64,000 nucleotides of DNA from positions 62,001 to 126,000 of the forward strand of contig NC_021313.1 in the NCBI RefSeq assembly GCF_000403645.1, written 5' to 3'. The stretch is from Salinarchaeum sp. Harcht-Bsk1. Its GTDB lineage: Archaea; Halobacteriota; Halobacteria; Halobacteriales; Salinarchaeaceae. Both the position numbers and the translations under genes were made by a program. Positions 34,849-36,360 of this stretch are shown here, one piece after another. The notes under the pieces were generated by a model. It ran no database searches. It was not told the DNA's origin and saw only the letters and a list, made by a program, of their open reading frames with translations. Numbering within the stretch: the stretch's first letter is position 1; each line of letters begins with the position of its first letter.

Positions 34849-36360
34849 ATGAGCGGCTCTCGGCCCGGCTTCCGACCCAGCGGGGTCGGCGTGGCCCTGT
34901 TGGCGTTCTCGGTAACGCGACTCCTCGTCGCGCAGACAGCCACGACGGAGGCCGGCACGTTCGTCGCTGCTTCGCTGTTTCCGCTGTCGGCTGGCCTCGG
35001 ACTCACGCTCTTCGGAATCGCGATCAGCGTCGGTGGTGTCTCGCGGGGCTACGCACGGAGCGTCTGGCGGTGGACCGTTCTGGGCACCTTCGCAATGCTA
35101 CTCGTCGTCGTCGCGTCCGGGCTCCACGTCATCCTGCTCGGCGATCGCCTGGGCGCGCTCTGGAGTGATTCGGGGGTGCTGGTCGCGAACGTCCTACTCG
35201 GCGGCGCGATCCTCGGCGCGTTCGTCGGCGACCGATCGGCGAGACACTGGAACACGAACGAGCGGCTCGTGCAGTACGCCGAGCGCTCGATGCTCGTCAA
35301 CCGCCTCCTCCGTCACGAGATCCGCAACGTCCTCGCGATCGTGAACGGCTACGTGGCGACCAGCGACAACGACCAAGAGGAGACCACCAGAGCGATCCGC
35401 GAGTCCACCGAGGAGATCGAGCAGACGATCGAGCACGCCGGCGAGTTCGCCGCCACGACCGGGGAAATCTTCGCCGTCGAAATCGGTGACGCGATCGAGT
35501 CCGTGCTCGACGTGCTCCCCGAAGATGCCGACGTGTCAGTCGCCGGCTCGATACCGGACGGCGTCCTCGTTCGCGCCGACGACCGACTCGACCTCCTCGT
35601 CGCCGAACTGCTCGAAAACGCGTTACAGCACGCAGGCCCGGATCCGTCCGTGGACCTCGACGTCGAGGTCGGGCACCGGACCGTCGAACTCACGGTTACG
35701 GACGACGGTCCCGGACTCCCCGAACCAGCCGAGAGCGTGCTCGCCTCGCGCTCGCTCCCCGAGTACGACGATCCGTCGCTCGGATACGGCCTCCAGATGG
35801 TTCGCCTCCTCGTCGAACAGTACGACGGCGCAATCGAGGCCGACTACGCCGACGGCACCGCACTGACGGTCACGCTCCAGCGAACCCGGGAGCGCTCAAC
35901 GCCTGCGCTGGCACGCGGCGTCCCGACCGTCGACCTGCACCGTGCCGGGTTCGCTGCAGTCGCCGCTGGAATCGTGATGGGCCTGTTCGTCGACCAGGTG
36001 GCGGGCCTGATGCCGGTCGTCGGGTCGCTCTATGGCGTCTCCAGTCCGGTCCTCGGCTGGGTCGCACATATCTTCCACAGCGTGCTCTTCGGCATCCTGT
36101 TCGCTGCGGGCTGTATGCTGCCGCGAATCCGCGAGGTCGCTGCGTCCCAGCGGGGACTGTTTGCACTCGGCATCGGCTGGGGGCTCTTGCTCTGGGTGTT
36201 CGCGGCCGGAATCGTCATGCCCATCTGGTTGCTGGCCGTCGGCACCAGCGCGACGATCCCCCACTTCTCGGCAATCGACCTCGTGGCGCACGTGCTCTGG
36301 GGTGCGATCCTCGGGGGCCTGTACGCCCGGTTGCCCGCCGAAACACTGCTCCCTACGTAG
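34849..36360 (+). CDS. Histidine kinase with membrane domains at both ends
   Basis: A 503-residue protein. Residues 1-125 contain four helices. The kinase core follows: H-box RLLRHEIRNVLAIVNGYV with H156, N-box LVAELLENALQHA near 250-262, G1 DDGPGLPEP, and G2 LGYGLQMVRLL. After residue 365 the protein does not end as usual but continues with a second membrane region of four helices (about 367-503), including VAAGIVMGLFVDQVAG and a C-terminal LVAHVLWGAILGGLYA. A response-regulator gene is not adjacent. The kinase fold is certain, the C-terminal membrane part is unusual and could be the sensor or anchor. Signal and partner unknown. Confidence 0.88.
   Translation: MSGSRPGFRPSGVGVALLAFSVTRLLVAQTATTEAGTFVAASLFPLSAGLGLTLFGIAISVGGVSRGYARSVWRWTVLGTFAMLLVVVASGLHVILLGDRLGALWSDSGVLVANVLLGGAILGAFVGDRSARHWNTNERLVQYAERSMLVNRLLRHEIRNVLAIVNGYVATSDNDQEETTRAIRESTEEIEQTIEHAGEFAATTGEIFAVEIGDAIESVLDVLPEDADVSVAGSIPDGVLVRADDRLDLLVAELLENALQHAGPDPSVDLDVEVGHRTVELTVTDDGPGLPEPAESVLASRSLPEYDDPSLGYGLQMVRLLVEQYDGAIEADYADGTALTVTLQRTRERSTPALARGVPTVDLHRAGFAAVAAGIVMGLFVDQVAGLMPVVGSLYGVSSPVLGWVAHIFHSVLFGILFAAGCMLPRIREVAASQRGLFALGIGWGLLLWVFAAGIVMPIWLLAVGTSATIPHFSAIDLVAHVLWGAILGGLYARLPAETLLPT

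Follow-up and report, generated by a model that had tools for sequence, protein, structure and literature searches.

Results

An intact kinase between two membrane domains

The gene studied here lies on the forward strand of the window (i.e., the whole stretch of DNA that was analysed, 64,000 nt in length) and forms a single open frame of 503 residues, which encodes an intact histidine kinase between two four-helix membrane domains (Table 1). Indeed, the kinase motif residues are all there (H156, N257, D285, G287, G289, G312 and G314), and Pfam locates HATPase_c at aa 245–345 with an E-value of 9.9e-14 and 52.2 bits (cut-off 26.4), as in a sensor histidine kinase. The HisKA match at aa 154–195 is below threshold (17.2 bits, cut-off 26.9), and HisKA is found at E ≤ 0.01 in 13 out of 24 fused members, i.e., proteins that join the kinase to the C-terminal membrane domain (hereafter the C-domain). 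A hydropathy scan of the window protein gave eight hydrophobic segments (aa 13–31, 43–61, 77–95, 109–127, 370–388, 401–419, 446–464 and 473–491). The initial annotation had described a kinase core with H156, an N-box and G boxes flanked by two membrane domains, and both the motif residues and the eight TM segments bear this out. It was also right to regard the C-terminal helices as an addition to the kinase; this four-helix block exists as described, with a start nearer aa 360 (35926) than 35947.

Table 1. Positions of the kinase gene and its features in the window
Feature	Positions	Strand	Basis and remarks
Whole gene	34849..36360	+	503-aa ORF, 4TM-DHp-CA-4TM; layout common to 69 full-length sequences
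N-terminal membrane domain, four TM segments	34885..35229	+	aa 13–31, 43–61, 77–95, 109–127; hydropathy, loop charges
H156, phospho-acceptor His of the H-box (LLRHEIRN)	35314..35316	+	Motif residue; H 49/69, D 20/69
CA (HATPase_c) domain, aa 245–345	35581..35883	+	Pfam 52.2 bits, cut-off 26.4; motif residues
N-box N257	35617..35619	+	Inside the CA domain
C-terminal membrane domain, four TM helices (aa ~360–382, 400–422, 434–463, 475–494)	35926..36330	+	AlphaFold2 models, hydropathy, kinase-less homologues
H407 in TM6 (GWxxHxFHS)	36067..36069	+	69/69 fused, 34/34 other C-domain rows
H410 in TM6	36076..36078	+	69/69 fused, 25/34 other C-domain rows
H481 in TM8	36289..36291	+	69/69 fused, 34/34 other C-domain rows

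The AlphaFold2 model of the C-domain (aa 350–503 plus six relatives) reached a pLDDT of 81.7 and a pTM of 0.76, with long helices at aa 360–385, 400–421, 434–464 and 475–494; the full-length model (pLDDT 56.3) was poor outside the C-domain and served for the C-domain helices only. Both four-helix blocks obey the positive-inside rule, the loop charges alternating as for N-in, C-in: over 69 sequences, the mean number of K+R per loop is 3.84, 0.42, 1.86, 0.51 and 4.55 in the N-terminal block and 2.04, 0.04, 1.75, 0.04 and 2.75 in the C-terminal one. A chance layout is ruled out, because 69 full-length sequences, the window copy included, retain it.

As the initial annotation stated, the response regulator is not adjacent: nowhere in the window did a REC domain turn up, and the nearest one found in the genome is ~43 kb away from the kinase gene. 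Judging from its sequence, the window kinase is probably active and an orphan.

Spread of the fused gene and of the C-domain alone

The 4TM-DHp-CA-4TM layout occurs in at least 70 of the 392 sampled genomes of the order, in 24 of 95 genera and 7 families; since the full-length profile search, whose profile was built from 24 fused proteins, scored the best three candidates per genome, 70 genomes is a lower bound. The matches of this search fell into an upper class, 71 places with E ≤ 8.1e-121 and the C-domain within the match, and a lower class, from 1.7e-55 onward, made mostly of kinases matching only up to about model position 370–410, with a few C-domain-only matches in between. Between both classes stood a broken copy in genome G103 and an N-terminal piece in G221. 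For comparison, 69 complete fused sequences from 68 genomes were taken, including the window copy and leaving out the broken G103 copy and the G221 and G297 copies, which are cut by contig ends. In a quick tree of the kinase part, these 69 kinases form one side of a branch with a support of 100, with six kinases without the C-domain on the other. Note that in the interrupted G103 copy (G103:C1:51062-51679, L118) the C-domain and the kinase parts lie in different frames.

When the C-domain was searched alone, 311 of the 392 genomes of the order matched at E ≤ 0.001, and therefore at least 241 genomes matched only outside the fused gene. The matches fall in long frames and also, among the matches listed, in many frames of about 150–200 aa. 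The search for the C-terminal domain alone that the initial annotation proposed thus does find standalone homologues, this genome included, where two kinase-less C-domain paralogues of 158 and 222 aa are encoded and a third, weak match was seen (E 4.9e-6). Over the phylum, 42 of 294 genomes match the C-domain at E ≤ 1e-5, and all 42 are the own genome or belong to the same order. Its relatives mark the host as a haloarchaeon, the six named records found being Halomarina, Halorussus (two), Natronosalvus and two Halobacteriales MAGs. Pattern scans of viral contigs gave no relatives.

Some further arrangements of the C-domain were observed. One 394-aa open frame without a kinase (G011:C10:270331-271161) contains two tandem C-domain matches and looks like a double copy, and in three genomes of one genus (G113, G185 and G123; L126, L127 and L128) kinase-less C-domain proteins are clustered in threes within a few kb. 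Near the fused kinase at L110, L111, L113 and L114 (one genus) and at L025 (another), a distant C-domain relative of 140 residues is encoded, which retains the equivalents of H407 and H481 (profile comparison E 1.7e-5, probability 78%).

Invariant histidines in the C-domain

The C-domain contains three histidines, H407, H410 and H481, each of which is found in 69/69 rows of the alignment of full-length fused proteins and in 30/30 representatives under 60% identity; S411, Y395, F409, F414, W460 and W484 are also invariant over the 69 rows. Among 34 other C-domain rows, H407 and H481 are kept in all 34 and H410 in 25; three of these rows (L014, L039 and L118) are fragments of fused genes, so that 31 have no known join to a kinase. 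Position 484 is W in all 69 fused proteins; of the other 34 rows, 29 have Y, 2 have F, and W is confined to the three fused-gene fragments. By the model's helices and the charge-derived topology, the three histidines lie at similar depth, each six to ten residues inward from the outer end of TM6 or TM8.

Positions conserved at ≥ 97% over the 69 rows amount to 16/153 in the C-domain, 12/134 in the N-domain, 4/66 in DHp and 3/150 in CA, and the mean pairwise identity of all 69 is likewise highest for the C-domain (0.46), followed by the N-terminal TM region (0.42), DHp (0.38) and CA (0.35). Within the C-domain, conservation is concentrated in the outer half, with a mean of 0.669 versus 0.461 for the inner half (69 rows, Mann-Whitney p 1.6e-6) and 20/76 versus 4/59 positions conserved at ≥ 90%, the halves having loops counted in and boundaries set by us.

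Decay of the kinase part

At position 156, 49 of the 69 fused proteins have H and 20 have D, and the N-box Asn is lost in 24. Taken together, H156 and N257 are both kept in 30, D goes with N in 15, H without N occurs in 19 and D without N in 5, so that one or the other is missing in 39 of 69. On a tree of the kinase part built without the H/D and N-box columns, at least 2 changes are needed for H/D and at least 4 for the N-box, counts that are silent on direction. A Pfam scan of 10 of the 69 proteins, all picked for missing H156 or N257, gave no HATPase_c at E ≤ 1 in 6 and a match in 4. In contrast, 25 of 25 similar kinases that have no C-domain retain H156, N257 and D285, and kinase decay therefore goes with fusion in the sample compared. 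These controls comprise 20 hand-picked, stop-free places without the C-domain and 5 out of another set of 6, from which L120 was omitted because it and L165 are one gene. They stand near the top in similarity to the fused profile, a choice that may favour intact kinases, and owing to shared ancestry the counts are not independent. The kinase is intact in the window copy and likewise in L062, a relative of the same genus. That the kinase is the part being lost is visible from the comparison and hidden in any single sequence.

Gene neighbours

No conserved operon partner was seen across the 67 of 69 loci with a called kinase (L056 and L066 were not called), and these 67 loci show 14 same-strand neighbours at a distance of no more than 60 bp. 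A REC-containing ORF is present in the flanks (up to ~5 kb) at 5 of 69 loci. Over the 69 loci, neighbours are shared within clades only. As an example, in one genus the fused kinase is preceded by a UvrB-like gene and followed by cobalamin-pathway-like genes, and one family has DUF3179-like and HxlR-like neighbours (names by reading). At nine loci of one genus (L064, L067, L068, L070, L071, L076, L078, L085 and L087), an Asp-156 kinase stands between UvrB-like and cobalamin-biosynthesis-like genes, again named by reading. The downstream neighbour in the window, by reading an ABC transporter, is on the opposite strand, and a similar gene follows in the same-genus genome.

Family assignments and rejected candidates

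No Pfam family reaches its cut-off on the first 134 or the last 150 residues of the window protein. HisKA_4TM (PF16926) gave no match at E ≤ 1 to the whole protein or to aa 1–134 and was absent at E ≤ 0.01 in 24 members, and HisKA_7TM (PF16927) gave no match to the window protein at E ≤ 1. The window C-domain is below the cut-off for both DUF6789 (PF20587; 19.4 versus 27.1 bits, and 17.5 bits in the search of its own genome) and DUF1440 (PF07274; 14.9 versus 34.7 bits), two families of "unknown function" by Pfam title to which the C-domain is weakly similar by profile: in alignment A2, 8 of 16 rows match DUF6789 and 6 of 16 match DUF1440 at E ≤ 0.1. Foldseek with the C-domain model gave 0 matches at E ≤ 0.001, and a PDB sequence search with alignment A3 gave 0 matches at E ≤ 1.

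Three other ideas were tried and rejected. A cobalt role related to CbtA (PF09490) came up because of the cobalamin-pathway-like neighbours in one genus; these were seen in that genus only, and CbtA has no profile match at E ≤ 1 in the window protein, at E ≤ 0.1 in the relatives or at E ≤ 0.01 in this genome. That the C-domain arose by duplication of the N-domain within the protein received a probability of 0.1% in a profile comparison. For a globin-like fold, the best VIA-align hit (Z 6.2, 5.6 Å rmsd to the DosC globin) is under the helical-bundle background; a haem site in the C-domain is nevertheless possible.

Discussion

Histidines kept throughout the family and a kinase decayed in many relatives make the C-terminal membrane domain look, as far as the sequences tell, like the heart of the protein. 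Our preferred reading, to which we give somewhat less than an even chance, is a haloarchaeal membrane receptor built on a histidine-kinase chassis, in which a putative ligand or cofactor site of the C-domain relays its state to CA. The four-helix C-domain would be the conserved core of this receptor, and a candidate ligand or cofactor may be held jointly by H407, H410 and H481 within the outer portion of the membrane; a metal ion, haem and a quinone are guessed at because two or three buried His lie on two helices. The state of the site would pass inward via TM5 and a linker of ~15 residues directly to the CA lobe, which would be held between two membrane anchors, so that a movement of TM5 could alter the CA-DHp contact, and the N-terminal 4TM domain would anchor the DHp helices from the opposite side. 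For the window copy, the predicted effect is control over H156 autophosphorylation and over phosphotransfer to a response regulator whose gene lies elsewhere, and in kinase-decayed relatives the output may be non-catalytic, e.g., as a partner in heterodimers. The intact kinase of the window copy, the outer-half conservation and the depth of the histidines count for this receptor, as do the spread of the layout, the three histidines kept in 69/69 (H407 and H481 also in 34/34 other rows) and the highest mean identity of the C-domain over all 69. Against it, comparison of the C-domain with the PDB gave no fold or sequence match of weight, and the clade-specific gene neighbours point to no ligand. 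In addition, the C-domain is not the most conserved part in every group: with D156 and N257, the N-domain is more alike (0.683 versus 0.623), and with D156 without N257, DHp equals the C-domain (0.742 versus 0.737). The loss of kinase function in many relatives is also odd for a sensor with phosphotransfer as its sole output, and standalone C-domains indicate that the domain can work without a kinase, which an enzyme or a transporter fits equally well.

The direction of control may indeed be the other one, the C-domain being the output (a membrane enzyme, an electron-transfer or a transport module) and the kinase-like part an ATP- or dimer-state switch that regulates it. We hold this to be rather unlikely. 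In its favour, the C-domain occurs without a kinase, at least 241 of 392 genomes matching only outside the fused gene, with many listed frames of 150–200 aa; H407 and H481 are invariant in the other C-domain rows too, and 39 of 69 fused proteins are without H156 or N257, with 6 of 10 such proteins scanned giving no HATPase_c at E ≤ 1. However, both H156 and N257 are kept in 30 of 69, the window copy included, and phosphotransfer therefore seems to matter in many lineages; nor does any enzymatic or transport Pfam family reach its cut-off on the window C-domain. A related and unlikely scenario is that a membrane cofactor protein captured a histidine kinase as its regulator, the C-terminal His site being the working part and the kinase core an ATP-dependent control; if so, phosphotransfer would be dispensable, and lineages would repeatedly turn the core into a pseudokinase.

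As the norm for histidine kinases is an N-terminal TM sensor, the N-terminal 4TM domain may also sense as usual here, and the C-domain may bind a structural cofactor or a partner protein and tether the CA lobe to the membrane. The N-domain is well conserved (12 of 134 positions at ≥ 97%), and for related kinases that have no C-domain the alignment spans both the N-terminal TM region and the kinase; three invariant buried His and 16 of 153 positions at ≥ 97% nonetheless exceed the needs of a tether, and we consider this option improbable. From the roles that the initial annotation offered for the C-domain (sensor, transporter-like module or tether), the sensor is best supported, given the three invariant, outer-side buried His and the standalone homologues; a transporter-like or enzymatic module is still a live option, and pure tethering is unlikely because a tether needs no histidines kept in 69/69 while the kinase decays. 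The initial annotation had also considered a separate gene fused by sequencing error. Although the C-domain does exist alone, at least 70 of 392 genomes carry the fusion, with 69 full-length fused genes in single open frames in 68 genomes, and the gene downstream is similar in a relative of the same genus, so that such an artefact is ruled out for practical purposes.

The sensors of HisKA_4TM and HisKA_7TM kinases precede the kinase, whereas in the window family a membrane domain also stands after it. Both are TM sensor domains of haloarchaeal histidine kinases, and an archaeal census lists 4TM and 7TM sensor domains together with histidine-kinase-like proteins without HATPase (PMC5847659). 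The fused layout does not appear to be a widely known kinase architecture, common as it is in haloarchaea: among the matches listed in our literature search on haloarchaeal and archaeal histidine kinases with C-terminal TM domains, subscription journals lying mostly outside its scope, it is not described. Likewise, none of the matches listed for DUF6789 and DUF1440 looked relevant.

Plant ethylene receptors (ETR1/ERS1 and subfamily 2) may be alike in working, with a histidine-kinase chassis and a cofactor site in TM helices, putative in our case. Their subfamily 2 has diverged kinase domains stripped of essential residues, the His being retained in one member but not in others (PMC3611092). 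They differ by the copper of the ethylene-binding domain and by a GAF domain (PMC3611092), and the ethylene-binding domain is N-terminal (PMC6944256) while the candidate His site here is C-terminal; the likeness is therefore one of analogy only. Similar to the decayed fused members, the archaeal MA_type 2 kinases of Methanosarcina (RdmS and MsmS) have no phospho-acceptor His; they bind and hydrolyse ATP, and RdmS is not an autokinase (PMC11784639). RdmS, however, is cytosolic (PMC11784639), whereas here the His loss recurs within one family of membrane proteins. In Corynebacterium glutamicum, the pseudokinase ChrS still matters after catalysis is lost, through heterodimers with HrrS (PMC9491836); it differs from our case as a laboratory-evolved frameshift of a bacterial haem-responsive kinase, and the abstract mentions no C-terminal membrane domain (PMC9491836). 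By analogy with such systems, the repeated decay of the kinase suggests that some fused members may signal without catalysis.

Altogether, histidine kinases are usually read with the sensor first and catalysis last, and this family, present in at least 70 of 392 genomes, ends in a membrane domain that is family-wide better conserved than the kinase. Its members form a natural series from an intact kinase to no recognisable ATPase domain, which lets one ask why a membrane receptor needs a kinase, and they would provide a way into the function of a DUF6789-like membrane domain that, among the matches listed, is found without a kinase in many haloarchaea.
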